Origin: Sthenelais limicola
Lineage: Eukaryota; Annelida; Polychaeta; Phyllodocida; Sigalionidae
Reading direction: 5' to 3'
Assembly: GCA_942159475.1 (NCBI GenBank)
Contig: OW804096.1
Span: 103,018,194 to 103,082,193, forward strand
DNA length: 64,000 nucleotides
Shown: positions 2,925 to 54,700 of the stretch, in pieces
Position numbering within the stretch: position 1 is the first letter of the stretch
Layout: each line of letters opens with the position of its first letter
Translations under genes and position numbers: made by a program
Notes under the pieces: generated by a model
The model's input: the letters and a program-made list of their open reading frames with translations, nothing else
Databases searched by the model: none
Told to the model about the DNA's origin: nothing

Positions 2925-3029
2925 TTGCAAAAAAGTGCTCCATTTTTTTTTACTTTTGACCATATATATATATTTGTAAATCAAGTTTGTAATAATCTTC
3001 AAATCAAAACAAAAACTGAAAAACCTCAT
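2925..3029 (+). repeat. 95-105 bp direct repeat, copy 1
   Basis: Runs from AAAAAAGTGCTCCATTTT through TTTGTAAATCAAGTTTGTAA to AAAAACCTCATA. It matches 5301-5401 with about one substitution and one length difference in the T run. Confidence 0.9.
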
Positions 3030-3573
3030 ATATGTATGCCAGATCCTGTTGCATGACTATGTCGTTTACATGTGGCCATGTTGCGGCTCTGTATGCTGCG
3101 AGATCGTATGGCGAAGGAACCTCGTTGTCTGGTACTTTTCCGGGTTTTGTCTGGCATATGGTCCTTATACTACTAAAATCCACATGTGGATACACATTAT
3201 GTACATTGTTCAACGGTTCATGGTTGCCCTGCCGGTCATATTCATAGTTTTCACGTGAACATCAGTCGTGCGATACGTCCAATCCATATGTTTTTGTTTC
3301 CTTCATGGGCGCCGCCATTTTGTGCCCTGTGTCTAGGCTGGTGGTTGGCTGTTTGGGCCGTGGCCGCGTATCGTGGCTTCTCATTGGCTGTTGCTCTCCT
3401 TGGAGGTTGGTGGTATTTCCGGTTCCTCCTTTCTGTTGTGATGGTGGGCGTGACCATTCCTCGTTGCACTCGTATATATACAGTTCATCATAATAGGGCA
3501 CATAGTCGTCGTCCGATTTAAAACATTCAACATCAACAAGTTTATAATTATTTTGCGGTGTATTCATACTCAC
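3004..3573 (-). pseudogene. Start of the pol region downstream of the minus-strand gag, truncated
   Basis: Two short open segments on the minus strand (3262-3573 and 3004-3213) follow the gag. The position matches the start of the pol ORF in the Ngaro element at 9813, but I see no RT motif. The reading frame runs straight into the direct repeat near 3029, showing an abrupt break. Confidence 0.35.
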
Positions 3574-3620
3574 TGTCCCTGCACAGAGATGGGAATCCCG
3601 CGAGAGGCCACTCGCGGGGC

Positions 3621-4796
3621 CTACGAGTTTTTTGAGTATGGAGTGTACTGGGTTTGTTGTTGTCCAGTGGGTGGGCGTGGCACATAGTGGCTTGCTTGCT
3701 GTTGGTGCTGGGGCGGTGCTACAGGTGGTGGGAACATGTAGTGTGATCCGATTGGGCTCGGGTCTCGGCTAGTTGGATTCTTTGCACGTTGTTTTTTCAT
3801 GCACTCAGACTGGGGATGGGTGTGTCTGTTCTGTACATTCATGGCGTAGCAAAAGGCGCAGATGTGGTTTGCTATCATTGGTTCCAGGCTGTGTCCGTCT
3901 TTTTCTGTACACGTTCCTTTCACATTGTATATAGGACATGGTATACTCTGTTTTTCAATGTTGCTGATTGTTGTTGGGGCCAGTGACATTCGCATTCGAT
4001 CGTACTGAATCTGATCTGTGCTGCTCCATGTGATGTCCCCTCTTTCGATCCTATCATAGGTGTAATTTGACCAGCGGAGTATGTTTTTCCATGGGCGCTC
4101 CCTGGCATCTTGCGCCACTTGGTGTAGATGTAATAGCATTGGATGCTTGTCCTCCGGTCGCACCATATTGACGTCGAGAAGCATGGCGGTATATGCATGT
4201 ATATATTCAGGATATGTTAGTGATTCCTTGGCTTCCATTTTATCTCTAACCGAAATGATGCCTTCTCTCTCCATGTACAGGTGAGGTTTAACTATTTTTC
4301 TTGTTACTCTAGGGTCGAAAACAGTCAAACCTTTTATGTCTCCTGTTGCGAAGATTGGGTTGCCGAGTTCCAGTTGAGAGTCTATGTACATTCGTGACAT
4401 CTGATCTGCCATGAGTTCCCGTGGACGAGGGTAGTAGCCAAAATCTGGGCGGTTGTTTACCGGTGTAGCGTCCCTATAATTCGGTAGTGGGTTCGGCTTC
4501 TCGGTGTGGGTGTCCGCCTCGGAGGTTGATGGTGTGGCCTCTTTCTGACTCTGTGTGGTAGTGTCCGGTTCTTTGGGTTTTAGTTGCTCCGGTTCATTGA
4601 GTTTTAGTTGCCCCAAGGCCTGGGATATCGCATCTGTTATTGATGACTTCATGGTACTTTCCAAATTGTTGATGGTGCCTTCTATGGCTGTCATCCTCTC
4701 CTCTATTTTCTGTGCGTCCGGTTTTGGTGGCATTGTTTCGACACTCTGTGTTGCCGGTAATGTCAATATGGCGTCCAATGCTTTGTGCGGTGACAC
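3621..4796 (-). CDS. Ngaro-like gag protein fragment (minus strand)
   Basis: 391 aa, open throughout. The N terminus has a short coiled coil (KIEERMTAIEGTINNLESTM), then a Pro/Glu/Thr-rich linker. The core includes MEREGIISVRDKMEAKESLT and ARERPWKNILRWSNYTYDRI, which aligns with SREGVTTIKQKLDARSTMSG and ALERPWPAVRRWTQFIWDEI of the gag at 8383. The C terminus repeats the C...C...HICAFC...H...C pattern and ends Gln/Pro-rich. It belongs to a different, diverged family. No RT or recombinase follows before the repeat at 3029, so the element is truncated. Confidence 0.78.
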   Translation of the reverse strand: MSPHKALDAILTLPATQSVETMPPKPDAQKIEERMTAIEGTINNLESTMKSSITDAISQALGQLKLNEPEQLKPKEPDTTTQSQKEATPSTSEADTHTEKPNPLPNYRDATPVNNRPDFGYYPRPRELMADQMSRMYIDSQLELGNPIFATGDIKGLTVFDPRVTRKIVKPHLYMEREGIISVRDKMEAKESLTYPEYIHAYTAMLLDVNMVRPEDKHPMLLHLHQVAQDARERPWKNILRWSNYTYDRIERGDITWSSTDQIQYDRMRMSLAPTTISNIEKQSIPCPIYNVKGTCTEKDGHSLEPMIANHICAFCYAMNVQNRHTHPQSECMKKQRAKNPTSRDPSPIGSHYMFPPPVAPPQHQQQASHYVPRPPTGQQQTQYTPYSKNS

Positions 4797-5300
4797 TCAG
4801 AAAAATACACAGTGTCTAAAATCGTAAATCCTAACTTCTGTCTCTTTGCTGTTTTGGTATTTTCACATATACTGGTGGTATAGTCCTATCAGTATTTGGT
4901 ATTCCTCCTTTGTTTAGTCATTTTTAAAAGTAACTTGGTTTGTGAGAGCTTAGAGCAGAAGGAAGAGAAAGGGTTTGTGGGAGGAGTAGTGTACCGGTAG
5001 GAGGGCAGGGGGCAGCACCAATGCCTAGGAATCTTAGATGCCTGCAACATTGCGATGCTAAGAGTCAACATGAATGAATTATTTCTGTCAGTTTTTTATA
5101 GACCAATTTTTATCACGTTGGTATCGCATCAATTCTTCAGTTATTAAAACCTCCATAACTTTTTTTAAAAATTGACCCGACGTATATGAATAGCACCCGA
5201 TCTTCCCAAGGTATGGGACAACACCTCGGGCGAAAATAAAAAGAATCGGACAAACAGTTTCTGTTCTATGAACGCTTAAAGTCAAAAACGCTGAAAATCA

Positions 5301-5401
5301 AAAAAAGTGCTCCATTTTTTTTACTTTTGACCATATATATATATTTGTAAATCAAGTTTGTAATAATCTTCAAATCAAAACGAAAACTGAAAAACCTCAT
5401 A
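5301..5401 (+). repeat. 95-105 bp direct repeat, copy 2
   Basis: Second copy of the repeat at 2925-3029. The two copies bracket the Ngaro-like fragment exactly. Confidence 0.9.
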
Positions 5402-6021
5402 AAAATTGCAATCTAGGTAGCACCGTTCTCTCCTTATTTATGAAGTACACATATAAAGCTGCGGATTCTACTTGGTACCATGCATATGCAATTCCAATAT
5501 CCATATCTTTGCAAATTAACACATTTAACTTAAAACACATACACGTACAATTTAAGTTGGCTCCTATTCAAGATTATAAACAAGCTATCTCTCTTTTTTC
5601 CCCAAATATATTTATAATAATTATCAAGGTTACTAGAATAATGCTGTGAACATGCACGGGAATTATTAGACAGTTGTCCATAACAATGGAACTAAATGCG
5701 AAGATGTTCTTGCCACCTTCTTATTAGCACGGAGCTTTTGACTGCGCCATTGTAAATATTATCTTTCCTAACTAACGCCACCCTTCTGAAAAGGTTATAC
5801 CTTAGGCATTATTATTATGATGATCAAGGTCAATACAAAATGAGAGTGAAGAACAAAATCTTATGACATAATTATATCCTAAGTGCCAAATTACTTTTTA
5901 TGATATCCAGGCCATCCTTTTATGATATTGTTATGCAATGATGCGTCAGGACACCGTGTGACTCGTGGGCATTGAAGTCATGGTTAAAGGGTCCATATGT
6001 AGTGATTTCCGCCTAGTAATA

Positions 6022-6540
6022 CTAGTTCACTAACCAAGTTCGAATCTTATCAATCTCAACGAAGGGGAAGTAAAACCAGTAACATAGTGCATGCTTTAGT
6101 ATCTCAGGCTTTATTCCACCACACAGACCCATTCCAGCAGTTAATCTCAGACCCAGCTTAGGTCCAAACGACTCAGCAAGAGTGAGCAATGACTCAAGAC
6201 AAGAGTAACAAGGTATAGCAGATTCAGGAACGAGGCAACTTTGGTACACAGTCAATGAAGGTGTTTCAGGTAAAAGGAAGGTAAAAGAAGGTCTAGTGTA
6301 ATAACAGGTTATGGTACATAAAAGGAATCTCGCCGGAACATCCGGAAAAAACAACACACTAATTGTGGTATAAAGTACAGTTAGATAAGAGTAACCTGTA
6401 ATATAGGAATCAATGAATATGACCCATGTAAGTTTTGGTGGGAATCCGAAAGGCCTGTTTTCACCAGCACAGCAAAGGCACATGCAGCCAATTCTAGCAG
6501 TACTGGTCCAGATATGGTCAGTTGGTAAACAAACACTCAA
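6022..6540 (-). other. Unidentified 172-codon open frame
   Basis: The predicted product is Cys/Leu/Phe-rich with several hydrophobic segments and no motif I recognise. Codon use is not clearly coding and no splice or promoter context supports it. It may be chance or a remnant of an unknown repeat. Confidence 0.15.
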
Positions 6541-7359
6541 GCCCCAATCAACGCTTGATTGGTATACCCATATTCACTACACATATACATAGTATTCACA
6601 TAGTATTCACCAGGTGGGCGCTGGGGGTGCAAAGTCTTGGGTTATTTACGTTCATAGATAAATAAATAAATAAAGATTGTTTTTGTCGATTAACACTATC
6701 AACACCCCACCTGCTTCCCTCCCCCCTATGGCATCTCCCGACGCATTGAAATCCGTTCGTTTTTTTAGCTTTTTATCGTGCGAGAACCATCGCCCATATA
6801 AGCGATGCTTCTCACACATATATAGGCCTATAGCTTTGTTTCTGGGTGTTTGGCTGGCCTGCTGGTGGCGCTACCTCATGGGAGGGTGTGAAACCATTTT
6901 TTTGACTTCCTGTTAGTTTACCACATTACCACGAGGTGTACACCACAATAGTGAAGCCACTAATGTCTGATTTTGAGTTCTCCATGCAGATAAAGGGTCA
7001 ACGCGAGAGGTCTGTCACGCCTTAATTATACCATTAAGAGCTAAATTTATTTGGTCAAATCTCTCCCTAAGGCTCTAACTTAGGCACTCAGCTAAGTTTT
7101 GGGTCTTGGACAATGAGAAATAGAGGGGGTTTCCCGATCATGGAGGAAGTTGTACAGTACAATTGCATCTCCGAAGGAGTAATGGCGAATGTTCTTGCTT
7201 TGGTGTTATGTGTTACATAATTATTTAGTTATGCCATTTTCGCCAGCTAGTCAAGCTTTGTAAACGTTAGCTGGACATGTGTGCTCCAAGCCTCGAAAAT
7301 GCTGTTTTCCGGCCGTTTTTACCTCCGAAGGTTTGAGCAAATTGATATAAAGTATGCTA

Positions 7360-7404
7360 ACAGGTTCAATGGTAATTCTTTGACAGGTTCAATGGTAATT
7401 CTTT
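7360..7404 (+). repeat. Tandem duplication CAGGTTCAATGGTAATTCTT
   Basis: Two adjacent copies of about 23 bp in the gene-free stretch upstream of the Ngaro element. Confidence 0.9.
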
Positions 7405-8097
7405 AGTGTGTCATGGCGGGGAAATAAGTATAATATCCCTCGGAATGGGAAAAGCCTGCCGATCTGTAGCTTCCCGCTCTCTGTGTGGCCACACAGTATG
7501 GCTGCCAGTGAGGATAGCCGCTGACTGGGGTGACGTCATGTGAATACTATGTATACTCCAAAGGCTGTAATTTCCTATACTTATATAGGTGTAGTTATAC
7601 AACAGACTATGTATCCTTTATCTAATTGTCCCTTATGCTATTGTCCCTTACCTTATTGTGCTAGGTCCGATGGTCTGGTCGTGCCTGCTTTTTATCCTAA
7701 TGATCAGTAATATTTGTCATTTCTGATTATCATGCTTTAACCTGAAATTGTTCCAATTTGCGGTAGGGGTTAGGTAAAGTAATGTCTAAAATTATTTTAC
7801 TAATATAACACTTTGCAACGATACTTGGCGGTATTAGCCTAATCATGCTTGTCGTGTACATCATCAAAAAAGGTACGGTAGGCTACATTCGGCAGCTCTA
7901 CACATTTAGTAAATATCTTCTAAGTGAAGCTGGACAATCATGAATGCAATGACCTAGCTATAGGTATATCTGAGTATATTTGGTAATCGGTAAAGTTATA
8001 TCTACTGGAAATGCACCCATCCTCGGATAGTGATTCCTGATTCCAGGCCGAAGGTTTCAATGTATAGGAATTTCCCTCAGACGTGCTGCTCTGTAGT

Positions 8098-8263
8098 AAT
8101 GGTGAGTGCATTGCCGCTTGGCGATGCGCGGTCATTGAAGCTAGGGGTACTAAACACTCCCACTAACAACCCACGTGACCTGGTCACGCAACAACCCAAA
8201 CCACCCACCAAACCATTCACTTCACTTCCAACTTCCAACCACACCACTGGTTCAATTTTAACC
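8098..8263 (+). repeat. Ngaro split direct repeat A1
   Basis: 166 bp, nearly identical to A2 at 12226-12391 (for example GCATTGCCGCTTGGCGATGC in both). Confidence 0.95.
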
Positions 8264-8382
8264 TTGGCAGTGAAGCCCAAATGCACGGTGCTCGCAGTAC
8301 CGGCGCACATACATTTAGGCTCTCTAATAGACGGAAGCTAAGACAGTCAGACACAAGACTAGTCACTAAACGCAATTCTATC

Positions 8383-9672
8383 ATGGCAAATAGAAAGAGG
8401 GGCAGGAAGCCAAAACCAGTCACTACCCCGGATACCGGCCCAGAGACTGACCAAACCGCCGTACCGCCGGCGGGACCAGAGGACGGGCCCCCAGAGGTAG
8501 AACTGATAGGGCCGGAGGACGAGAGTTCAGACTCAGAATCGCTCCCCCCGCCTCCAAAGAGTATAGTGAAGAAGAAAGTGAAACGAGTGACCACCCAAGA
8601 GCTGGACGGTGAAATGAAATCGATGAAAGCCACGGTTAAGGGCATTCAAGGGTGCGTCGAAAAGATGGCCACACAGATGGCCCAAGTGGCGAGGTGTGTG
8701 GCGCAAAAGAAGAAATCCAAAACCAGGGCACCTGAGACAGAGTCCGAGGATGAGACCGAGGAGTCAGAATCAGAGTCCGAAGACGAAGACGAGAGCACCC
8801 CTTCGCCTCCACCTACCCGTAGGTCAGGCCGACGGCGCCGTGTCTCCCCACCACCAGTCCTCAAAAGGCAAATGGACGCTGACAGATATCTCGAGAAGGA
8901 GATGGAAAGGGAGAAACGGTCGGCTGGCCTACAGGGTAAGAAGCAATATATTTCTGACATTCATTCTCTAAATATTCAGTCGAAACCATACATGTATGTG
9001 TCGAGGGAGGGTGTTACAACTATTAAGCAAAAGCTAGACGCGAGAAGCACTATGTCCGGAATGGAATACGTGGATGCTTTTCTGTCACTATTGGAGGACC
9101 CCAGGGCATTTAAGCATAGAGACTATCATCATATGTTAACACACCTAAGAAAGGTTACCAGAGATGCCCTCGAGCGTCCCTGGCCCGCCGTCCGACGTTG
9201 GACGCAGTTCATATGGGATGAAATTGAAAATGGGGCTCTTGCATGGAGTGATCGTGTGGGAATACAGGAGGAGCGTGTGAGGCTATGCTTGGCCGCACCA
9301 GTCAGTATGGGCTCTCACCCGGGCCCCCAATATAACTCATCTAGCGGGGGAAGTAGAGTCACGTTCAATAACAGGGGAAATAACGCTCAACAAGAAATAG
9401 TGTGCCAAGCTTACAATGCAAAGAGCGGGTGTAGACATTTGTATAATCATAATGAAGGTACAGTGCTAGCTCTACATATATGCGCATACTGTGATTCGGT
9501 GGGGAGGTCATGCAAGCATTCTATGAGCGAGTGTAACAGACGGGTAGCGCACGCCAACTCAACGGGTGACGTCACAGGTGGCCGCTCCCAAAGCTATAGC
9601 AATGTAAACAGTGCAGCCCCGGGTCAACAGGGCCAGGGCTTTGGTGTCTCAACACAGTCAAAAAATGATTAG
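8383..9672 (+). CDS. Ngaro-like gag protein with cysteine/histidine-rich C terminus
   Basis: 429 aa from the MANRKRGRKPK start, which I prefer to the in-frame ATG at 8281; that one lies only 18 bp past repeat A1. The N terminus is basic and AT-hook-like (RKRGRKPK), then acidic (SESESEDEDE). The middle holds SREGVTTIKQKLDARSTMSG and RDALERPWPAVRRWTQFIWD. The C terminus has a C-x8-C ... HICAYC ... C-x2-H ... C pattern likely to bind zinc and nucleic acid. The fragment at 3621-4796 encodes a diverged relative with the same plan. A structural role for the RNA is inferred from position. Confidence 0.85.
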   Translation: MANRKRGRKPKPVTTPDTGPETDQTAVPPAGPEDGPPEVELIGPEDESSDSESLPPPPKSIVKKKVKRVTTQELDGEMKSMKATVKGIQGCVEKMATQMAQVARCVAQKKKSKTRAPETESEDETEESESESEDEDESTPSPPPTRRSGRRRRVSPPPVLKRQMDADRYLEKEMEREKRSAGLQGKKQYISDIHSLNIQSKPYMYVSREGVTTIKQKLDARSTMSGMEYVDAFLSLLEDPRAFKHRDYHHMLTHLRKVTRDALERPWPAVRRWTQFIWDEIENGALAWSDRVGIQEERVRLCLAAPVSMGSHPGPQYNSSSGGSRVTFNNRGNNAQQEIVCQAYNAKSGCRHLYNHNEGTVLALHICAYCDSVGRSCKHSMSECNRRVAHANSTGDVTGGRSQSYSNVNSAAPGQQGQGFGVSTQSKND

Positions 9673-9812
9673 AAGGGGCCCCAGCACAATTAAACCCATG
9701 GGCGCCCCCGTTTGTTACTAAATCTGATCACCAATCTCATGCAAATGTTTTAAGTTCTCGTTCAATACAGGATACAGAGCCACCGCCCACAAGCAGACGC
9801 CATCACCAGCTC

Positions 9813-11209
9813 TTGCACGAAGTCTCGCCCTGCGAGATAAACAAGAAAGATGGCGGCCGTGACACCCAAGTGTCACTACATGCACCAAGCACACACATGT
9901 CTACGTCCAGCACACAGGCTAGTGACAGCTTCTCCGCTCAAAGTCAGGTGGATGCAAACATAGTAGGTCGACCTATCATATTCTCTCATGTTAAACAAAT
10001 ATGGGAAGGCAAGGCAGATAAACTGGACACTGATCTCGGACCGCACACGTTCGCGGCTGACAGGCGCACACGATGGCCTCAGTGCACCATAGACCGATCT
10101 CACCCCACTCACAGTCTCATATACAGCGCGGTACGCAAATCCGGCCTGCCTAACTCTCTAGACGCTAAGATAACTCTCCCCACCGAGGTTAAATCTTAAA
10201 GCATGGGACAAGTATTTATCTGATACCAATGACCATAAACAATTGAGGGATTTTGTAAGGTATGGGTTCCCGATGGGGTATCTTGGGCCCACATCTCACA
10301 ACGACACGGGCAAAAATCACAGCAGCGCCGATCAGTTCCAGCCTAAGATCGACAAGTTCATAGAAAAAGAAATTAGGCTTGGGGGGGTTGGTGGGGCTAT
10401 TCGACACTGCTCCTTTCCGCGAATGGTACCACTGCCCCCCCATCATGTCACGCGAAAAGAGAGATAGCGAAGATAGGCGAGTGATTGTTGATTTGAGTTA
10501 TCCCCAGGACGCCTCTGTCAATGCATACCTCAGAAAGAACAGTGTGTGGGGAGAGGAGAGGAGCCACTCCCTCCCCACCGTGGAGGGCCTAGTACAAGAA
10601 CTGGTAAAGATGGGAAATTCTGCATTTATGTCCACAATAGATATATCAAGGGCATATAAAAATTTCAAAACTGACCCCCTGGATTGGCCCCTTCTTTGTT
10701 TAAATTGGGACAATAAATTTTACCTAGATGTCACCATGCCCTTCGGCGCCCGCACCTCGTCCTGCCACATGCAGAGAATAGCTGATGCTATCGTAGGCAT
10801 ACTCGCTCGTGATGGTATAGTGGCAAAAATGTACTTAGACGACTTAATCATACTCTCCCCTGATAAGGAAACAGCTACTCGACAATACGATAAAGCTATC
10901 GCACTATTCGAGGAACTCGGACTCCCCGAGGCGGCCGATAAGAGGCAACCACCAGCCCAGCTCGTTAGGTGGCTGGGTATAAATATCGACGCGAACAAAA
11001 TGTGTCTGAGCATCCCTCACGACAAAGTGGCCGAGACAAGAGAACACGTGGAACGCTACACTAAACGCAGATCCATGTCTAAGCGCGAATTACAGTCGCT
11101 CATACAGTCGATAATAACAAGAGGTCATGGGCCTGTGACCATCAAAATAGTCACAGGGAGCGGAGCTTATTTATTGTGGGTGGGCGGTAGGCCAGAGATA
11201 GATAAATAG
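9813..11209 (+). pseudogene. Ngaro-like reverse transcriptase, frameshifted
   Basis: The pol reading frame is recoverable in three pieces: 9813-10199, about 10195-10380 (AWDKYLSDTNDHKQLRDFVR), and about 10380-11209. It shifts near 10195 and inside the G tract at 10380-10387. The RT shows RRVIVDLSYPQDASVN, motif A STIDISRAYKNF, MPFGARTSSCHMQRIADAI and the motif C YLDD (residues coded near 10842). The RNase H that normally follows is absent, cut off at the microsatellite at 11200. Two shifts and the truncation make it non-functional. Confidence 0.88.
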
Positions 11210-11224
11210 ATAGATAGGAGAAAG

Positions 11225-11282
<58 letters not shown>

Positions 11283-11402
11283 TGAGTGAGTGAGTGGGAG
11301 AGAGAGAGTGAGTGTGTGTGTGTGTGGGGGGGGGGGGGCGGCAGACATGAGAGGGGATTTTAGTGACATTTGCTGTTTGGACAGACAGACAGACAGAGAG
11401 AT
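11198..11402 (+). repeat. Compound GATA/GA/GACA/GT/G microsatellite
   Basis: AGATAGATAAATAGATAG, then GAGA and GACA runs, GTGT, poly-G (about 11327-11338) and another GACA run. It sits exactly where the RNase H and N-terminal recombinase coding region of the Ngaro element should be. Confidence 0.95.
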
Positions 11403-11836
11403 ATTACAATTACACAACTGTCCTTGTAAATATGCAGTCGGCATATCACAGCAAGAAAGTAAAGTTAAAGTCCTCCAACGATGAGGATATGTGTATTGTC
11501 AAAGCTATGTCGAGGGTATTAGGCCATACCCCCACGACAAACCGACAAGACCCGGCATTTATGTTCCCTAACACCAGGAAACCCATGCCCACATCATTTG
11601 TGGCACGAAGGTGGAAAGAGCTCCTCATACAGCAGAGAGCCGATCACACTAAGTACTCACTCCACAGCCTGCGTAAAGCGGCTGCGACCAATGCATTCAA
11701 AAATGGTTGCTCCGAATTACAAATCCAAGCTTACGGCGGGTGGCGCTCTGACGCCTTCCGCGCCTACATAGACTCAGGCACCACAGGAGTGAACAGGGCC
11801 ATAAGAAGGGCCATTGCAAATCCCCCTGCATCCTAG
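11363..11836 (+). pseudogene. Ngaro-like tyrosine recombinase, C-terminal fragment
   Basis: Roughly 115 recognisable residues from MSRVLGHTPTT to the stop. They contain the catalytic HSLRKAAATNAF (H-x2-R) and GGWRSDAFRAYID with the nucleophile Tyr. The N-terminal part with the first catalytic Arg is missing, replaced by GA/GACA simple repeat that keeps an artificial ORF open. The enzyme would integrate the circular cDNA through the split repeats. Confidence 0.85.
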
Positions 11837-29000: not shown

Positions 29001-32000
29001 CCTCTATCCCCTGGAATGGCTGGTGATGCTCGTGCTGACATCGAAACTGGGTGCTTGTGAAACTGGGGATTTCCCCCCGAGCCCGCGTGAAACGCGGTTC
29101 TGGTTTGTTTAGTTGGGACGTAACGCCTGGAATCCACATTGAAATAGCTTCAAAATCACCTCCCTTCCAAAAATTATTTAGAAGAAGCTAATACCCAGAC
29201 AAAAGTAAGCCACCTTGAAAGTTATAGCACATGCTCCGAGTAAAACGCCTTTTATTATGAGGGTCGTTATTCTTAGATGGATAAGACTGATTAGAATGTA
29301 TATAGAATCTATCAAATCCCTCATTATGCTCTCACTACTCAGGCGGACAGTCCGGTATTCCACGTCAATGTTTACCAATATGCAGGGCGGTACTCTTTGA
29401 TGTATGGCTATGGAATGTTGTGGGGTCTGGAATTTGCCCCCCATTATGTGTTATAGCATTATTACCCCGAGGTTTGGTGGTTTGTTGTGCTCTGGGTGGT
29501 CATAGACACTCGAGGGCTTGCCCGAGAGTGTCTATGACCACCCAGAGCACAACAAACCACCAAACTGAGGGTAATAATGCTTTTAGACGCGATTTGATCA
29601 GATCAACTTATTAATACCAAAATAGAAGGTTTACCAACCTGTACAATTATTCATTTTAATCAAATATGCCTTGCGAAATAGGTATTAAGTGCGCCGGATG
29701 TTTACCCACTTAACTCCGCCAAGTACTATAGGTGGCGCCACCCTCTATGGCGTTTTAACACTGCCGTTCTATAGTCCACACTTCAGGGACTTCCGTCGAT
29801 ACAAATGTGGTCTATAGGCAAGAAAATACCTCCCAGAATCTGATCAAATCGCGTCTAATGTACCATAAACCACCCACTGTGCCTATGTCAGCAGTTCTAT
29901 GACAGCTGCAGAACTAAGAGTACAAAGTAAATGTGCCAAGAGGGCAGGCTAATTGAATAAAGATATTTCAGAAAGGGTAATTGAATAAAAGTAAATTTTA
30001 AAAAAAATATATATCTAAATTTAAAAAAAAAAAAAGTACAAACTATTTCAAATTGTAAATTTTCTTACCACTTTTTTTAAAGACAAACTTTTTTTAAAGA
30101 CAAACTTTTTTTAAAGACAAACTTTTTTTTAAAGACAAACTTTTTTTAAAGACAAACTTTTTTTAAAGACAAACTTTTTTTTATACTAGTTGTGTATTCA
30201 TTATTAATACAAATATAATTGGTGTAGTGAGACCCAGTTTGTTTGGCAGTTGCCTAGTTACCAGTACCAAGCCGTCACCCTCAAGCTATGATTCGAATCA
30301 GCCAGATGTGTTTTGGCCGCACGAAAATCTTTAAATAAAGGGCGGCCACATGGTCGCAGATTTCCAATCGGCACCCCCGTGTTTGAGTTATATTTATTTT
30401 CCTATTCGTCATCGGAACTAACTATACATAAATTTCTCCATCTCTCATGAATACTCATATTTTGTACTCAAAATAATTTGGAATTTTTAAAGGTCTTGAA
30501 GACTGAAAGTATCTGATTACTCCAGGGGACTCATGCACCGTGAATGTATAGGACTGCACTTGGTATTAGTTCTTGTTACTAAACCGATACTGATAGAGTG
30601 ATATCACTGCAGCTGGTATGGCCGACCTGATTGGGTCAGTAGACATGATAAAGTGACACATGCCACTGAGCTCCCGATTTTGGGAAAGTTTGCCTGAATT
30701 TCAACTATGTTCTAGACGAAGCGTGGCCCGTGCGAAAACCCTTTTCGCCGAAAATAAACACAAGCTTACGACCGCCACCCATGCCTCTATAACAGAGAAC
30801 CTATATATCTCCAAACCCTATCCAATGGACTTTACTCCCTTAATTCGATCTTAGTCTCTCTAATTATTGTGCGTCGCCACCTCGCTAGGTGGCAGCACAC
30901 ATGAGATGGGACAGCTCTTCTCGCGCCACTTTTACGGATTACGCTTGACCAGGCATGACGCTATACCGGGGACGGCTCATCGTATTTCTTCTAAATAACA
31001 CCGCAGTTGGAATTTCTTCTAGAAACTTTTGTCCTCTCTCGTTCTACGATAGCCCACCTTTTTGTCTTCCCTTTGAGGTTCGTTGAGTGACAATTAAGGT
31101 TGTTTTTTCGCGTTGAGAACACAGCAAACGGGCTCGAGATGTCGGACGCTGACAAACTGGGACCTCATGGTGATGGGGTGAAGGAAACTTCCCCAGCATC
31201 AGTTGACCAGGAAAAGGACGAGCAGCAGGTAGATGCTCCTACTTTAACCCACTTGATCGACAGTTTTCATGCTTTTGAGCATAAGTTCGGTTAAAGACTC
31301 ACGGCAATAGAACAGTATCAGAATGATGACTACTATTCCAAACAGTCTCGCTCGTGGCATGGCTACCCCTCCGGCCACCCGCTCAGCCACCCTAGCTCAG
31401 GCTATGATTACCATGGATTACAGGATTATGATTATTACGCCAAATCCAGGGATTATGCAGATTACTATAACCGCCATTATTCCCATCGTCATTCGAGGGA
31501 CAGAAGGAGACGTTCCCGAGAGAGATCGACCCATAGGAGACGTTCTCACTCTCGTTGAAGACATAGGTCGAGATCACCATTAATTACGGCGCCTTCCTTC
31601 AGTCGCCATTCTTCACCCCTCATGGCCCACTCCATTCCACTCTGTTAATGCTAGTCACCAGCCAGCGAGTCCAAACCCTTCGCACACTCAAGTGTGAAGA
31701 CATCAAATTCAGTTCGAAGTACAAAGCCTCAATCCTCCTTTCAGAGGTCATCAAGACCAGCTCTGTGAGGCGCAGTCTAAGAATGTTATCCCTAGAAGCT
31801 TTCCCAGATAATAAGAGCATCTGCATTTTAACCTGCCTACGCCATTATCTATTCAGAACCAAGAACTTCCGTCCTGAGGATGAGCAGGGCAACGTCCCCG
31901 GCCCTTTATTCATTAGCCATTGTGCTCCTTTCAAGCCTGTAGCAAATACTACCATTGCAAAGTACATCAGGTGCACCTTAGCTGCAAGTGGCCTCAACAC

Positions 32001-35000
32001 CGACACCTATAAAGCCCACAGTGTGCGGTCGGCCACCGCTTCCAAGTTAGCGGTTTTACAGGTTCCCATAAAGCAAATTATGGATAGAGCCATTTGGAGG
32101 GGTGAAAACACCTTCAGGCGTTTTTATCAGAAACCGATCAATGTGACGGTCTCTACCGCAACGCATCTTCTTTCAGATCACTCAGGAAAGAAGAGGAAGC
32201 GCTCTAAGTGATTTGAATCACTTCTTCGCTGTACATATGTTGGGGAGAAATCAGTGTATTGGATTTCCTCCCCCTGCATGTGTTTATCTACACCATTAGG
32301 ATAGTTGTGTACCTTAATTAGAACTATATATATGTAGTTTGTCCAACATATATGGTTGTTAGTTCCATTCATCATGACAAATTCTTCATCATTCTGCAAG
32401 ATCTACAACTTCAGAGTGAATCAAGAGCCATGTGTGCACTATGTAAGTGTCTGCGGGGAATTGCTAGTTAAAGTCTCACGTGTGCTGCCACCTAGCGAGG
32501 TGGCGACGCACAATAATTAGTAAAATCTGCTAACCTCACTACATTCGCTGACGTAGATTCGTGATTATTGGAGGAGACAGGTGCACAGGCCCGCCCTCCT
32601 CTCCCTATTTGTTAGGGTGGCTGTCTCTGTGTTTGTCTCCAATATCACATCCATCGTCTACTTCTCAGGATTCATCTCTGGCAATTCCCCCTGTGGCTAC
32701 ATCCCCGGTTAAAAGTCTGCCGTGAGAAGAGTTGTCCCATCTCCTGTGCACCACCACCAGCGGCTGTCTCCTCCAATAACAACAAATCTACGTCACCGAA
32801 CGTAGTGAGGTTAGCAGATTCTACTAATTCTTTCACCAATCGAAAGGGAATTGCATCAATAACTACATGTGTGAGTTTAAAAGAAATCCGAGTCCCAGAG
32901 GTGAAAATATTAGTGAAATTAAAAAATAAAATGAGACGAATGTACAATGGCTGGCTACTCTGGGATTTGAACCCCCAATGTGCTGATTGGGAGTCCAGCA
33001 TCTTACCCCTAGACTATAGATTGGTTGTATGGAAATGCATATAAACACTAGACATATGCCACCCATTGATGTATCACATTTTAGCTTTACTTTAATCTGC
33101 CATTCTTCTCATGGGGAATGAGGAGAATGGGGAAAATAAATTATCTATGAAGTTCCCTGTGTTGGCCACAGGCGATTTAAGGATTCAAATTATCATAAAA
33201 GAATATCTTGGGTTCCGGTTTACCCTGATAGAGAGAGAAACGTGGAGCGCTTAGCTCCCTTAAATTCTTCTTTTTTTTCAGCAAGGCGGAAAAGAGCAGT
33301 TCACCAAAAGTGAACATAGGGCTGTACAAACAGACAAAGCAACCATTGGAATTGTTAAAAGTGAAGATAATCAAGACTTTCATGAATATCTGGACAATAT
33401 TACCAATCGATTGAACCAGTGGGTCCCAACCGCCATTTTGGCAACCGCGTACCTATTGTCGCTCAACACAGACTCTCGGAGAAGCTCCTAGCAGCTCATC
33501 TAAAATTACACAAAGGACATTGCGACTCTCATATACGAGGAAAAAGTATATGTACCACGTCGAGCAGCAAAAGAAAATATTAGAGCAGTTTGGTAGGGAC
33601 AAATCTAGGATTTCCATCCAACCACGTGTGAATAAAAATGGCGCCTGGAGGAACCTTAGCCTAACCGTGGAGCAATAAAATACCGTAGGTGAACAAGTGG
33701 AGCATCAGTACAATACTGAATTAATTATCAAAAGTGATTTTTAACATATGGCAGGACTTTTCCCATGGTGGGAAGCATTGAACAGTAAGTAAAATCGCTA
33801 AAAAATATATGATCGACTGGCCGCTGGCCCAGTTCAGCATCAGTAGAAGCTAAGCGGCAATACCGCCGCCATCTTACCGACAACCTCCAACCGTCGAAGG
33901 TAGACTTTGAAAAAGCTGAATCTAGACCAACAAGGTGGTATTTGCTTTATTCAAAACCAAAGTTGAGTGTTAGCTATATAGGAAATGACAACAAAAGACT
34001 TATTAGCTAAATCAAATCGTTAAATTAATAAATTGAGGACTTTTACCAAAATACAAAAGCTCGAATCGAAGAAACCGGAAGTGTCTTCCGCCATCTTGGA
34101 ATCTGAACGAAAATAACAAAACATCAGTGGGTTAGTACGGTACTGAGCCGGCCTATACCCGTGGCAACGCAGGTTTGCCGCCAAGGCCATGAGCGAAGTA
34201 GATATCGCTGGCGAGAAGCGTAAGAGGCTAATGGAAGATCCTTGTGACACAGTAAATTCCCCTAGTAAAGTGCAGAGAGGTATCTCTGATAAGAATAAAA
34301 GCATGACGAAGGAAACAGCCAACAATAAGCTTAAAACTAAGCCCAAAAATGCAACAGCAAACTCAGTAGGAAAGGATGAAAATAAGTCGGGGCAGAATGA
34401 AATTCTAAAGATAGAGTCGAAAGAAGTCAACCTAGCGATGCTTGTACAGAAGATGGCCAGAGGTCAGAAAGAAGATGCTCTGACTCTGGCTAAAGAGACC
34501 GAGGAGAGGAATAAAGAAACCCAGAAAAATTTCGAAGCATTGTTTGAAGGCTTAAATCAGCTCGAAGGCATGAAAACAAGGGTAGATAAAGTGGAAAAAA
34601 ACTGGGAAACAAATCAAGAGGAAAATATCATCAGAGATAAAGAAAGAGATGAACTCAGAAAGAGAGTGCGCATACAAGAAGATCAAATGAAGGCAGTCCA
34701 AAGAGTAATTAACACAACAAAAGATACTGATTTCCAGAGAAGTGCACGAGAAGAACAGAAAGCTGACGATGAATTTATTAAAGAAGAAACAAAAAAACTA
34801 GAAAAAAATCTTCTTATCCTCGGCCTAAAATCTGGGGAAGGGGAGATAGAAGACGAGGAAGAATTAGACGAAAAGGTGCAAAGCTTCCTGAATGATAACC
34901 TGGATCTTCAGGATATCAAGACCAAGAGAACCTTTAGAGTCAGCTGGAAGGCAGATGGACCTGTAAAGGTCGAGTTCAATACGGTAGAAGCCAGGGAAAC

Positions 35001-38000
35001 CGTATGGAAAGCCAGATTTAAATTACCAAAGTGGATACCAGGGCAGCCAAAAGGGTTGGGCTTAATCAGGGACACGCCTTTAGTTCTCAGACAACGAAAA
35101 GCTAAGGTAAAAATGATTGCTGAAGCAGCAGAAGAAATGCATTACAAAACCAAAGTCGCCGGAGCAAGTATCTACATAAATGGTACCAGGTTCAGACATA
35201 ACCAACTCGCAGGTGTTCCTACTGAATTGCTCTTATCACAACTATCTAAGAGACAAAATGAGGAGGCAACTGTCTTCTTCACAGCACAGAACCCATTGTC
35301 AAACCACTTCAGGGCACCATTCATCCTTGATCAAAACAGGTACGAAACTGTTGAACAATATCTCTTATATCACAGAGCCAAAATCGGTGATGATCCAGAA
35401 AAACCTACCCTGGCCTTGAATACTCAAGACCCAGCACAATGCAAGAAATACATGTCGCAAATCCATAGGAATCATGACCAATGGATACAACAGAGGGAGG
35501 AAATAATCAAGAGAGCATTGAGGGCCAAAGTAAGGGCACACGATGAGGTTAGAGATTATCTTATGATGACTGGGAACAGGAAGATAGGAGAAGCCTCGCC
35601 TTCAAATAAAGATTGGGGAATAGGTAAGGGTTTAAAGCACCCAGAGGTATTAGACTATTCTCAATGGCCATCCCAAGGCAACGTATTGGGAAAATGCTGG
35701 ATGGCGGTTAGAGCAACACTAATCAGGCAGGAAAAATCCAAGGCCAAACAAGAGGAAAGTGAAGAGGAGGAGGACGAGGAGGAGGAAGATGAAGAGGAAG
35801 AGGTTCCAAATGATGATGTGTCGGACATGGAACAAGGTCTGGAGGAGGAAGAAGAAGGCAGAGATGGATAGTCTCCCTTAAAGTGACTGAAGATTATACA
35901 TAGACATTTGTAATCACCAATGGAGCAAACATGGGAAAAAGATAAGACAATCCCATTGAAAATAATTACTTTAAATATAAACGGACTAAATAACTCGACC
36001 AAACGAAAAGCTATTTTTGAACAATTCAAAGATGAACAGAATACGATCATAGCTCTACAAGAAACGCATTCCACCGAAAAGACAGAAAAGATCTGGAAGA
36101 TGCAATGGAGGGGAGAATCTCTTTTCTCACATGGCTCTTCCGCATCGAAAGGTGTCATGTTTTTAATCTCAAAAGACCTAAAAAGTTCAATACAAAATCA
36201 TGGTGGAGATAAGAATGGAAGAATTCAATATGTTAAAATACAGGTTGATAATTCTGATATATGTATAATTAATGTGTATGCCCCAACGGCAGATAAAGGT
36301 AAAGAACAAGAAGAAAATCTTAAAAATATCGAAGAAATGGTAGAAAATGTCAAATGTGATAAGCTGATTATTGCTGGTGACTTTAATGCTGATCTATACT
36401 ATAAACCTGTTTCTCACGCCTCTTCTGCATTAAATCTGTGTATAAACAAAATGCAACTGAGTGATATTGTTAGAGCGAAGAGCAATGGTAACCCAGCTTA
36501 TACATGGTTCAGAAAAGACCAAGAGTCGAGAATTGACTATATTTTTGTGTCAAATAATATCGTAAGTAAAATTATAAATACTGAGGTGAAGTATAACTCC
36601 CATTCTGACCATAAAGAGGTGAATCTAGAATTACAAACTAACAGAATCACTAGAGGTAAAGGGTACTGGAAATTAAATACAATGTTGTTAAGAGATGAAA
36701 GATTTAACAATGAAGTGGAGAATATATGTGATGAAGTAAAAAATATAAACTTGTCTCACAAAATGAGATGGGAATTCCTCAAGTTACAAATTAGACAAGT
36801 GGCTATAAAAATAGCTGGCCAAAATACTAGGCAAAGAAATGCCAAAGAGAAAAAATGGAATGAAAGGTTAAATGTTCTCTCTAGTAAGAAAAGATTAAAG
36901 ATAGAAGAAATAACCGAAAGAAATGTTTTAATGCAAAATATAAAAGAATCGGATCTCAAAAGGGCTGAAGGTGCCCTTATCCGGTCAAGAGCTAAATGGA
37001 GCATCGACGGAGAAAAATGTTCCAAATATTTCTGTTCCTTAGAGAAATTCAGGGCAGAGAGTAAAGTTATTAGCTCGTTGAATATCAATGGAAAATTAAC
37101 CAACAATCCCTCAGAAATTCTCAATGAAGGAGAAAACTTTTATTCCAAACTATATAAAAAAGGGTATAGCTGCCCCATAGCAACAGATGTTTTTACGAAC
37201 CAATCTCAGAGTGTTATGTTAGATGAAATCGAAAATGATTTTATTACCAGAGAAATATCAGAAGAAGAAATAAAAAATATTATATGTGGCATGAAGAAAA
37301 TCAAATCGCCTGGATGCGATGGGTTTAATGTGGAATTTTATCAGCATTTTTGGGAAAAATTGAAAATCTTCTTTATTCCAATGATGCGACAATGCCTTGC
37401 AGATGGCCAAATGACAGATGATCAGAAGAGAGGAATTGTATCGGTTATCCCTAAAAAAGATAATGATCCAAGTCTAATAAAAAACTGGCGACCGATAACA
37501 TTACTCAATGTTGACTACAAAATCATATCAAAGATCTTGGCTTCAAGACTCTCAGAATTTTTACCCCAAATAATAGACGGTGACCAGTTCGGATTTGTAA
37601 AAAATAGATTTATAGGCTCTGCAGTGAGAAAATTAGATGATGTTATCTCCTTATTGGAATATTCAGGGGAACAAGGTATTGTCGTATCATTGGATTTCTC
37701 TAAGGCATACGATTCCATTGAGTGGCCCTTTCTGAGGAAAGCTTTGGAGGCTCATGGAGTTAAAAATGTCTTTATTGGTTGGATTGAAACCTTAATGTTT
37801 GACTCAAAAGCAGTATTTACCAACAATGGTAGATCGTCAAGATGGTTCAACGTAGAAAAGGGCATGAAACAAGGGGATCCCCTATCATCTGTATTGTTCA
37901 CTATTGTTATTGAAAAGTTGGCAACCCAGATAAGGAAATCCGAGAATATAAAAGGTATAAAAACAGCAGATGTAGAGGCTAAGATCACCCAATTCGCGGA

Positions 38001-41000
38001 TGACTTAACTTTAACAGTAAAAGATGAGAAATCGCTGGTAAATACCATTAAGATTATAAAAAAATTCACTGATGCTTCCGGACTAAAACTTAACGAAGCA
38101 AAGTCTAAGGGATTTAATGTTGGAGGTATACATATCTCACATGAATCTTTAAGTCAGATCGAATGGGTGACCCAAATGAAAATTCTCGGAATTACCTTGG
38201 TTTGCCCAAGAAATGAGAAACTATTATATAAGATTAACAGTGAAGAGCTAATATGCAAAGTTAATAATGTAGTCAATGACTGGGGAAACAGATTCCTTAC
38301 CTTGAAAGGACGTATATTAATATGTAATGTTTTCTTACTACCAATTTTCCAACATACTATGTCTTGTATATCATTTGATGACTCCTTGTTGAAGAAAATC
38401 AACAAAATTATGCTAGACTTTGTGTACAAAGGCCCAGGTAGGCCGATCAGTGTTGGTTTCCTGTCACAAAAAATTGAAAATGGTGGCTTAGGGTTAAGGT
38501 TGATCGAAGAGATTAATATAACGAACAAAATAATGTGGGTGAAGAGATTCCTAGGCAACGGGGAACAAAAATGGTGGAAATCTCTAGAACAGTTCGAAGG
38601 TAAAACTCTAGACCATGTCTTTCTAGCGAGAAGCACCCCGAGTAGATTTTTGAATGAATTTTACAAAGATTTATTTAAAATTTGGAACAAGGTATATACC
38701 AAGCATGAGCCTCAAGAGGCGTATCAGATCAAAAAAGAACGATTATGGTATAATAAGCATATAACCCACAAGAAAAAAATGATTTATAGATCCGACTGGG
38801 AAGAAGCTGGCATAACATCTGTGGGAGATATATTATATGAAAATGGGAATATTATGACGTATAGGGACATCGCTCTATCCTATCATTTCAGACCATCCTA
38901 TTATCATAGGCAAGAAATTGCCTTAGCAATTCCAAAAAAATGGTTAAATGTTGTTAAAAAAAGTGGATGTACGATAGGTAAACACTCTGTAGATTTCTAC
39001 ATAGGGGACAAATGCATAAACCTCATAGAATGCTCAGCTAAAGATATATATCAGAGTTTAATTATAAACAAAAAGGTGAACAGAGAAAAATTCGATAAAT
39101 GGCAATATATTCTTAAACTGAATGATAGTCAATTCGAAAAAATAGACTGGAAAATGTTTTTCTGCCTCCCTTATAAAGTTACACCGGAGACCAGAATCCA
39201 GGTAATGCAATACAAAATTTTGCACAAAACTCTGCCCTGTAATAAATATCTAAAAGAAAAAGACATCAAGAACAGTACCAGATGTGATTATTGTACTAAG
39301 AGCGACGATTTATTACACTTTCTGGTCGAATGTAGAAATACCAAAAGTATTTGGAAATTTTTACTAAAATGGATCTATGAGAGTGGACATCTAAACAGCG
39401 ATTACAAAAAAGAAAATATATTCCACATGAAAGCAAATGTTATACAAATAAACCCAGTAGAGATTATCCTTGGTCTGCCTGTGTCAAACCTGAACACGAA
39501 AATTATTAATTGGTTGATATTACAAACAAAAGCCTTTGTGTATAGACAAAAATTGTTTGGTGAAGGAATATTAACGAATATAATGTTACTGTATGACTTA
39601 AGATCGAGATGTGCAACAAATATATTCTCACAAAGTTTAAAATCAACTAGCAAAGAGGAGAAAACATTATGGAGAAGAGTAAAAGCAGACCTAGACGAGC
39701 AGATCAACATGTTAAAATAAAATATAAATTTAAGTTATGTATAGGGACCCAACCCTAAGGGAAAGGCTGCTAGGTTAAATATGAATATAAATATGAGAGT
39801 GTGTTGAATCTATCTGATTCTTATAGAGTCGCCACCTGGTGGCAAAATTGTATATCTATCAGTAGAACGATAGACGTAATGTACCCATACTGAGTCACCA
39901 CCTGGCGGAACATGCGAATAACACTAAGGCAGTAAGGCTTAGAATGTTGTATGAATGATATTTTTAGAAAAGTTTAAAAATTTTACTTTATTAAAGAAAG
40001 CAAATAGAAAATGAAGAGTAATAATAAATTCCTTTTCAGAGCTCATCAAACCAGAACTTCAACGAAACAGTATTAGAATTGTAAAAGCCAAGATGGCAGG
40101 ATAAGGGAAAATAAAGATTTTTAAAAAACAAAAAAAAAAGAATATCTTGCATCTGCAATATATTTCTATAATATGCCAATGGAGGGCTTCTTGCACTGCA
40201 TGCTTCTCTGGATTAGTATATTTGTAATGAATACCCAGGAGCATTAATGTATTAAATATGTATATCTCGAGTATGTAAGAGTTTAAAACTTCAATTTCGA
40301 AAGATGCCACCGGCCGGTTGTGCCTCACAGACAACAGTCAGTCCCGAGTCTGTTGGTTAGGGAAAGTCCCCGACGCCTCTTGTCATAATTAGTTAAGGGA
40401 TAACACCTGGATGGGATAGGGTATATATGTCAGTATGTACCTCCTGCCTTGCTTGTACTTTACATCCCTTCACCATGCAGCACCCTATGGTCAAGTTACT
40501 TCTCTCTCAGATTTGAATTCCCCAATGGAATCTCTGCCACATTCTTCATTAACAAATATCAATTTATCTAAGGAATATGTAGCGTTGGTATTTCACTCAA
40601 ATTTTCTTACTTGTGCAGGTCATCAAAAGCAACAAACACATTTCTAAATGACATATAGTCAAAATAGTGATCTTAAAGTGTGCAGCCTTGAGTGTCACAC
40701 ATTGGGAGACGAGGACCTCCGGCTCTTGATTCCTCAGTCCCTCCCTCTCCCACTATAATTAACTTTCTTTTATTTCCAAAACATGTATTAAACCAATGTC
40801 TTCATTCTAAGTAGGCCTACAATGATTTTACTCGTCCTTGCACAAATGGACCCACATGTTAGACTTATGACCTACTTATATTTAATCGTTGTTTTTGACC
40901 TGTGGGTTTGAGGTCAAGCTGCACAATGTAGGTCAACTCACTACCGCAAAGCAGCCACTACCGCAAAGCGGGCCGCCAATTACGACATATGTGCTACATT

Positions 41001-51700: not shown

Positions 51701-54700
51701 ACTCATACCACTGAGCTGACACGGCACCGTAGTGACTCGGCCACCCCCACATCCTGCTTTCTCTTAATTACTACATACTTGAAGAGTTGAAGACCTTTAT
51801 GCGGGCCATATACCCATCAAAGGTCAAAAAAGCAGAGCGATATATGTTAGCCTCATTTTGTCAAATATTCGCAAAATTCTAATACCATGATCTGGCAAAA
51901 ATGTATCTTAATTCTCTATATAATTTTAGAGAAATATAGACTTATGCATGGCTGATAGCCCTTGCGGTTTTGTGCGGCAGGCGGCTCCACTGGTTTGAAG
52001 TATTTCTGATTGGACTGGGTTGTAACCGTTGGTATATGATTTATACTAAATTGATTTTTTTCAACATCGCCAGCCTCTGTACACAAAAAGGAACAACCCA
52101 TAAATGGGGCTTCCACATACATGGCAAACGACCGACACAAGACGACCGACAAAAGGGACACGGGGGGACCGACAGAAGTGACCGACAATGGCAGGTTACC
52201 GATTGTTGGTCCCCGGTATTTACATGCACGACAAAATATGCGCATTTGGTCACCGATTGTCGGTCACCTAGGGGTGACCGATTGGTATCCACATGTACAA
52301 CAATCATGACCAGGAGGCGGCGATACAGGTTGCTGTGTAAAGTAAACTATTATAACCTCAAATACCATTGTTAACAACACCTTTATAAATGAAAGAATAA
52401 TTTTAGATCTGAAAAGGCTGTTTAACATAGATTTATCAAAGTATTTTCTTGTTAATATATATATTTCTATCGCCTTGCATCGATGAAAATATCAAGTATC
52501 AATAATAATCAAGTTATAATTATGAGATATCAAGACATCAATTATCATAGATCAAATATAAACTTAGCAGATATTATCATTGTCCTGTACAAATCCTGAT
52601 TAAATTTATAGATGGAAAACTCAAACTCTAATTCAAATTGACAAGTTATCTCCCCCACATTACATAATTTCAACACCCCTCAAACTCTTTCAATTGTCAC
52701 ATAGTTTTTGACATAGTCCTTTCAGACACATCATCAAGTTCACAGTAGCTATCATTAATGATTTAACTAATTATCGTTGTGACGGTAAATATCAATGTTA
52801 AATAATATGGAGATCTTCATTCAGACACTCTTTATGTTGTCTGGGAAATAGCATAGACCAATATCATTTCTATTCTATATTTCAATACTTTTATGGGTTA
52901 TGAGATAAAACGGTAATCAATAATATGTTTATTTTACCAATGGTACCATATGTAATTCTGTGCATATAATAAAGGTGCTAAAGAATTAGCCTCACCCAGC
53001 GCTAAGCCTCTTGGTAATACATATACACAATATGGCTACTATACCTCTGTATGTATGTATATATACATGTTCTTTGTGTATAGTGATATAACTAATTATT
53101 TGGTGAAGGTAAATATCAATGTTGAATAATATGGAGATCGATCAAAGGATAAATAATATAAGTAAAGTCAAGCAACTAATATAAGTAAAGTCTCACAAAT
53201 AAATCCAGTTTCGGCACAGAAGTACAAGAGCCTGTGTAGCCTGAATGCAGTGATATACCTATAAACTAGTGATATACCTATAAACTAGTGATATACCTAT
53301 AAACTAGTGATATACCTATAAACTAGTGATATACCTATAAACTAGTGATATACCTATAAACTAGTGATATACCTATAAACTAGTGATATACCTATAAACT
53401 AGTGATATACCTATAAACTAGTGATATACCTATAAAGCCGGACGGCCGCTCTTATGTCTGAAAACGCTAAGTTTCTGAATAGGTAATATGGGGGGGGGGG
53501 GGTCTGGTAGGTCTGAGAAGCAACAATTTATTATTGAAAATCATTCTATTCTATCTTAAACTGACCACCTCATACCATTTTTATTTCTTATTTCTCGACA
53601 TGACTATTCCTATAATAGAAACGATTCCATATCTCAAATATATCACTATGAAAATCATTCAGACCATCGTTAGGCTTATTTCTACCAAGAAATATTTTAA
53701 CAATATCCATATTATCCATATTGTTATATTATGCGTAAAGAACATGTGTGTAAATATAGTAAAACCTATATTCGGTATATCTAATTAAAGGAATATTAAG
53801 TTAAATAATAATGCTACAACGTGGTGTAACATACTAATAAATAATTATAATACATAATAGAAATAGTAAAAATAAATGTACAAGTTAACTCCACACTATT
53901 CACTAAAATCAGGGACCCGCAAACCACGCAGCAATCGAAATATTTGGTAAAAATTGCAATAATTCTATATAAATCAATTTAAACGATAAAAATAAATGTA
54001 CTAATATACTCTAAACTTCACAGAAGTGAAGGGCAATGAACAGGAGGCTCATCAAGATCATAAGCACCTTTGGTTTGGAAAAAAAAACAACAAAAAAACA
54101 ATTAATTTAGGGTCCCAACAATCTGTCACCCCTCCTGAAAAGTTCTAAAATTTTAGAACTTGTCGGGAGGGGTCTACGACAGGTCACCGACAAGCCACCA
54201 ACAATTGTGACCTGGTGACCGACTGTCGGTGACCCGGTATCTACATGCACAATTGTCGGTGACCTCTGGTGACCGATTGTCGGTGCCCGCTAGTTTGTCG
54301 TTTGCCTTGTAGGTGGAACACAGGCTTTACACACAAATATGTGAACACACAAGCTACACAGCCGGCTCGATTTAATCCATAAATTAACTTAAATATTCCT
54401 GAATGTATGTTCATATCCTCGCTGTCTCAAGAGCTCGACCTAGCAAAACCATGTTGTGCCAAACACTACACTAGCAGAGGAAGGAGTGAATTCTGATCTT
54501 GGTTATAACCTTTCTGGTTCTCCCAAATATGGTTGATCGCCAGAATATTTTGTATTTAAATAATTTTATTTAGCCAAAACATTATATGCAGTGCACAATA
54601 TACTCAATCAGAGCTAAACAATACAAAATAGAAATTTCATCTTTCTTAAAGATTTACATAATACCATAATCAGCCTACCTACAACTCTATAATCAGCTAA

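Follow-up and report, generated by a model that had tools for sequence, protein, structure and literature searches.

What is a NADAR domain doing at the end of a retrotransposon RNA-binding protein? The question is raised by a 64,000-nucleotide stretch of the annelid Sthenelais limicola (contig OW804096.1; C3:103018194-103082193 in the 1.13-Gb genome searched here), which we refer to as the window. It contains a full-length L1-type long interspersed nuclear element (LINE) whose first open reading frame (ORF1) encodes a protein ending in a NADAR domain. As to what the domain does, we put the chances at about level that it is a hydrolase which, within the LINE ribonucleoprotein, frees guanines in the RNA or complementary DNA (cDNA) of the element itself from ADP-ribose, a predicted activity in a domain that retains both catalytic glutamates.

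The initial annotation, made from the letters alone, had placed a NADAR domain directly after an L1-type coiled coil, RNA-recognition motif (RRM) and C-terminal domain (CTD) in a LINE ORF1 protein; this arrangement is borne out, in a LINE with two ORFs. ORF1 is composed as follows:

34426..34794, + strand: long helix (residues 80-202) where L1 has its coiled coil, from the predicted structure
34801..35037, + strand: RRM, residues about 205-283
35038..35244, + strand: CTD, residues about 284-352, inside the 2ykq_C alignment (borders assigned by us)
35263..35727, + strand: NADAR domain, residues 359-513 (Pfam match 367-511)
35728..35868, + strand: Glu/Asp-rich C-terminal tail, residues 514-560, with a predicted local distance difference test (pLDDT) score below 50 from residue 528

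The profile search and the structure comparison that had been proposed as checks both returned a match. ORF1 scores 82.7 bits against the NADAR superfamily profile PF08719 (curated cut-off 35.1), and the predicted structure of the domain matches the NADAR/YbiA fold, which it has in common with the P. nicotianae NADAR (8bau) and E. coli YbiA (2b3w). The predicted long helix, together with the RRM and CTD, would place ORF1 among L1-type ORF1 proteins; human LINE-1 (ORF1p 2yko/2ykq, ORF2p 8sxt) shares these three parts, as well as the endonuclease and reverse transcriptase (RT) of the second frame, ORF2. Human ORF1p is not known to have a NADAR domain or an acidic tail.

The element itself occupies window positions 33211-40135 and is flanked on both sides by a perfect 14-bp target-site duplication:

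33197..33210, + strand: target-site duplication, 5' copy AAAAGAATATCTTG, 14/14 identical to 40136-40149
33211..34188, + strand: LINE 5' untranslated region (start inferred from the duplication)
34189..35871, + strand: ORF1, 560 aa, open
35872..35919, + strand: spacer of 48 bases from the ORF1 stop to the ORF2 start
35920..39720, + strand: ORF2, 1266 aa, open, with endonuclease and RT
35965..36612, + strand: ORF2 endonuclease, Exo_endo_phos, residues 16-231 (profile match)
37447..38199, + strand: ORF2 RT, RVT_1, residues 510-760 (profile match)
39721..40135, + strand: LINE 3' untranslated region and A-rich tail (the border between tail and duplication is ambiguous by a few A)
40136..40149, + strand: target-site duplication, 3' copy AAAAGAATATCTTG

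The duplication and the A-rich 3' end are those of an L1-type LINE, as is an ORF2 that combines an apurinic/apyrimidinic (APE) type endonuclease with an RT. ORF2 residues 13-860 match human L1 ORF2p (E 3.8e-91, 309.5 bits), and ORF2 also matches the endonuclease chain named LTX (2v0r, E 3.2e-19), which we take to be Tx1L. Because the duplication is perfect and the frames are open, a fairly recent insertion is suggested.

The architecture is known in outline, since NADAR-like (YbiA-family) domains were noted, in one sentence based on a Repbase query, in ORF1s of several Crassostrea gigas Tx1 LINE families (PMC12477816). The annotation's impression that it was undescribed thus has to be given up; its domain and architecture hold, and the domain has relatives and is under purifying selection. 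The likeness of the oyster elements to ours is by description only; the passage that mentions them comes without an analysis of selection, structure or residues. The same source reports a NADAR in Ectocarpus Gypsy, which is likewise a retrotransposon with a fused NADAR but is a long terminal repeat element that carries it in Pol, not in ORF1. In our literature searches, no study of the function, structure or selection of a LINE ORF1-NADAR came up, and NADAR/YbiA is absent from the main texts of PMC10294476 and PMC11203168.

The domain is not a one-off capture, the outcome that the annotation had tied to related copies lacking the segment. A genome search with PF08719 gave at least 150 matches: the 150 candidates scored, out of 5561 at first look, all exceed the cut-off, 148 of them without an internal stop; 140 lie in frames of at least 300 aa and 110 in frames of at least 500 aa, and 3 of 14 control genomes also matched. 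The whole-ORF1 search, whose ranking favours copies with the NADAR domain, yielded 80 matches from 78 of 8644 candidates scored, comprising near copies, fragments and 54 matches below 60% identity; as read from the list, all 54 reach residue 511 or beyond. With a NADAR-free query (ORF1 residues 1-355), 114 matches were scored, the best 114 of 2590 candidates. NADAR lies directly downstream in 18 of the 20 places sampled among them, 13 of which had been picked for short frames, and several of the 18 have frame breaks. By eye, the frames of the other two are disrupted: L068 is interrupted at the NADAR start, and in L085 a deletion joins ORF1 to ORF2-tail sequence.

The same picture emerges from the ORF2 side, where 42 matches were obtained from 37 of 18169 candidates scored and 35 of these rows were paired with ORF1-search rows (7 second pieces or fragments were left out). 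An ORF1 row lies at most 1.5 kb upstream in 21 of the 35, and one of these rows stops inside NADAR, at residue 381. Upstream sequence fetched for 11 of the other 14 contained a full-length NADAR in 8, a partial match in 2 and just 181 bp of element sequence in L065; the remaining 3 start inside ORF2 (residues 134, 404 and 346) and look 5'-shortened. No intact NADAR-less family member was seen among the 20 sampled of the 114 places or in this upstream check. Of 20 eight-kb loci fetched around PF08719 matches, 19 have an ORF1-type frame of 382-827 aa at the NADAR place, L032 with its 162-aa frame being the exception; an ORF2-like frame is present in 17. Ten of the 19 ORF1 frames were submitted to Pfam, which placed NADAR above the cut-off in 10/10, and RVT_1 in 6/6 ORF2 frames. 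Among the matches listed, neither ORF is interrupted by a stop in four copies of the window's family (the copy in the window being one of them), which would be indirect evidence of retrotransposition.

Selection on the domain, the further check that had been proposed, was gauged from Nei-Gojobori counts between copies, with NADAR set against RRM+CTD, and it is purifying, with the ratio of nonsynonymous to synonymous rates (dN/dS) far below 1. Between the window and L037 (89% identical), the 155 NADAR codons hold 52 synonymous changes and 1 nonsynonymous change (dS 0.974, dN 0.003), versus 45.5 and 22.5 in the 146 codons of RRM+CTD (dS 0.756, dN 0.069; Fisher p 9.9e-6 for the contrast). Against L038 (86%), the counts are 53 + 3 for NADAR and 46.5 + 23.5 for RRM+CTD (p 5.9e-5). 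The two tests are not independent of each other, and dS values near 1 approach saturation. In all 6 pairs formed by the window's ORF1 and three ORF1s from the database (P0003, P0004 and P0007), NADAR identity equals or exceeds that of every other domain.

NADAR-bearing LINEs of this genome fall into two groups that are far apart. The RT core of the window's ORF2 is 22-27% identical to those of 17 compared elements, and two of the latter match human L1 ORF2p at 63.9 and 50.5 bits, versus 309.5 for the window. Distances in the NADAR and RT trees of 18 elements (near copies included) correlate at 0.886, a value as high as which arose in 0/5000 permutations; NADAR and RT therefore seem to share one line of inheritance. 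Both one and two gains of NADAR by the two LINE groups are compatible with an approximately unbiased (AU) test on 35 rows, which gives p 0.0601 for a single clade of all LINE NADARs and p 0.0503 for a clade uniting this genome's two groups. L053 and L054 were returned as relatives and show no NADAR by eye in the frames pulled; they stand in a simpler-model tree and were left out of the 35-row tree.

How might such a domain serve the element? An ORF1 trimer (coiled coil, RRM, CTD) would coat LINE RNA and thereby bring several NADAR copies to LINE RNA and cDNA. If an ADP-ribosyltransferase of host or invader marked guanine on RNA or single-stranded cDNA, the NADAR would remove the mark, so that reverse transcription could continue with template and product protected. 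Removal of ADP-ribose from DNA guanine by NADARs has been reported, and among the hydrolase families tested NADAR is the sole one said to do so in RNA (PMC11833690). Six edible clams are reported to have ADP-ribosylated guanine in their DNA (PMC11209040), so some invertebrates do possess a writer for such marks; pierisin/CARP-type enzymes are reported in clams. Polyproteins of invertebrate RNA viruses offer a parallel, an RNA-based element whose NADAR is proposed to counter host ADP-ribosylation (PMC9503650); there the domain sits in a viral polyprotein, whereas here it sits on the LINE RNA chaperone. One step further, two deep LINE lineages of this genome may carry a particle-borne guanine ADP-ribosylation eraser as a counter-defence, which would imply an undiscovered host immunity against retrotransposons based on nucleic-acid ADP-ribosylation; we regard this wider proposal as possible but on the doubtful side. 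If the domain is active, the element would be a retrotransposon with its own nucleic-acid de-ADP-ribosylase and would parallel, in a eukaryote, the DarT-NADAR conflict of bacteria, and host use of guanine ADP-ribosylation against mobile elements would become directly testable.

Residue equivalences were taken from an alignment with 8bau, with numbering and roles per PMC11543638:

35353..35355, + strand: codon of E389 = P. nicotianae E43, invariant in 21/21 rows of the window's group and 18/18 of the second comparison
35374..35376, + strand: codon of R396 = K50, R or K in relatives
35590..35592, + strand: codon of E468 = E125, invariant in 21/21 rows of the window's group and 18/18 of the second comparison
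35605..35607, + strand: codon of N473 = D130, N/D/S/C in the window's group and D in the second group

The window's group is represented by the window's ORF1 and 20 relatives that were fetched, some of them near copies, and its invariant sites include E389, Q390, K419, W432, K447, E468, W476, G477, G479, G501 and R508. E43 and E125 are described as holding the distal ribose, with E125 marking the YbiA subfamily, and the E. coli C7 NADAR loses efficient hydrolysis when its E125-equivalent residue is changed (PMC11543638). Both glutamates are present in ORF1, and K75 (K419), W89 (W432), R93 (R436) and W133 (W476) are kept as well; YbiA differs from 8bau at K75 and R93. The lysine at K50 is missing from the window's ORF1, and its relatives have K or R. 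Since K50 is largely, not strictly, conserved across the superfamily and a Lys-to-Arg enzyme is active in vitro (PMC11543638), R396 is not treated as a bar to NADAR membership.

Several observations weigh against an active eraser. Besides K50 to R and D130 to N, the domain departs from 8bau in the contacts R79 (S423) and D86 (H429), and Y84 falls in a gap; YbiA, which is reported active (PMC11833690), likewise lacks Y84 and D86. In the E. coli C7 NADAR, K95R (the K50 position) did not rescue cells from DarT1, with hydrolysis in vitro kept, and E88A (the E43 position) had only a minor in vitro effect, with E88Q inactive (PMC11543638). The DarT family PF14487 gave no match in the genome (1 of 14 control genomes matched), in a search that did not extend to other writers, including those of pierisin/CARP type. 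The evidence for extreme constraint on NADAR is confined to the window's own family: in five other-subfamily pairs with shared members, NADAR dN/dS (0.043-0.123) exceeds that of RRM+CTD (0-0.061) in 5/5, so that the domain is under purifying selection there but no tighter than the core, and in three further pairs NADAR is saturated. Position 396, finally, is R in 14/21 rows of the window's group and K in 7/21. The annotation voiced the worry that with R396 and N473 at the usual Lys and Asp positions (the alignment agrees with this placement) the domain might be capable of binding only. Such a reader of ADP-ribose, for instance of poly-ADP-ribose on host proteins or where target DNA is nicked, would tether the LINE particle without hydrolysis. 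The pair is unlike characterised NADARs, and because D473 is confined to K396 rows in the window's group (6/7, the seventh having S, as opposed to N, S or C in 14/14 R rows), this group seems to have left the usual Lys/Asp pair together. However, both glutamates are invariant in every LINE row checked, and the pairing is absent from the 17 rows of the second group, where position 473 is D in 17/17 and position 396 is K in 9/17 and R in 8/17; R396 alone is therefore no mark of a dead site. Given that K95R hydrolyses in vitro and that D130 makes a water-mediated contact (PMC11543638), R396 and N473 do not by themselves appear to mean that catalysis is lost. The worry is thus weakened, though Lys-to-Arg failed in antitoxin rescue, and we consider a binding-only domain improbable.

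A working glycosidase with another substrate, such as NAD- or ADP-ribose-linked LINE RNA ends or intermediates, or a small molecule, acting in ordinary retrotransposition, would accommodate the lack of a DarT match, and we rate it as unlikely but worth keeping in view. YbiA acts on riboflavin intermediates (PMC11543638), the Ectocarpus authors propose processing of RNA intermediates (PMC12477816), and the nematode NADAR protein SNA-3 takes part in RNA processing with no known substrate given in the source (PMC9303266). Yet the NADARs tested were reported inactive on phosphate-end RNA ADP-ribosylation (PMC11833690), and the occurrence of NADARs in phages, giant viruses and RNA viruses (PMC9503650 for the last) favours a role in conflict, as in the eraser reading. 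That the domain sits on an RNA-binding protein, and that a NADAR-domain mutation in SNA-3 lowered the protein level (PMC9303266), would also suit an add-on captured for stability or RNA contact, its enzymatic side being incidental; the stronger constraint on NADAR than on the RNA-binding RRM+CTD in the window's family, and the invariant active-site glutamates and tryptophans, make this more improbable still. Neutral one-off capture or an annotation artefact is refuted by the at least 150 genome matches above the cut-off, the low dN/dS and the structural match, and its probability is practically negligible.

A region search with ORF1 residues 355-515, the A1 scan of bacterial and archaeal genomes (for relatives) and a scan of viral contigs with the L026 NADAR gave no match. 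The A1 scan of viral contigs matched four loci, and in the three whose ORFs were listed (L004 not among them) NADAR forms a separate single gene on a phage-looking contig, with no LINE frame visible. The molluscan hemocyanin family PF14830 matched neither this genome nor any control genome.

Other NADAR proteins were met along the way. In L032 (G000:C1:94850254-94858279), the minus strand at 2420-5480 bears a 162-aa frame in which NADAR stands alone (Pfam E 3.2e-31). It adjoins frames that by reading, not by a profile search, resemble a packaging ATPase and a DNA polymerase B of the protein-primed type, the set found in Polinton/adintovirus-like elements; among the matches listed, three with a 162-aa frame fall on contig C1. 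In a simpler-model tree, the NADAR of a Polinton-like element grouped with P0003 and the window's group (99% bootstrap), a placement that we dropped as the mixture-model tree disagrees. By reading, the plus strand of L032 also holds, at 1-1620 and 6288-7757, an RT of Penelope-like type whose end is GIY-YIG-like, and a further frame of 489 aa that resembles an L1 ORF1 and finishes in NADAR. The 881-aa database protein P0009 combines RNase H1, a PHD finger, NADAR and a GDSL-type hydrolase (PHD and GDSL below curated cut-offs), resembles other retroelement ORF1 parts and has C at the E125 position.

Elsewhere in the window, a 39-residue stretch at 53579-53695 on the minus strand is related to ORF2 (41% identical, E 3.7e-5). 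At 8179-11836 on the plus strand, a gag-like frame (by reading), an RT (E 1.2e-12) and a tyrosine recombinase (E 1.8e-8) in a row make up a DIRS/Ngaro-like element; a second gag-like frame (by reading) lies at 3621-4796 on the minus strand, and a second tyrosine-recombinase frame (Phage_integrase, E 1.7e-7) at 31567-32211 on the plus strand, upstream of the LINE.
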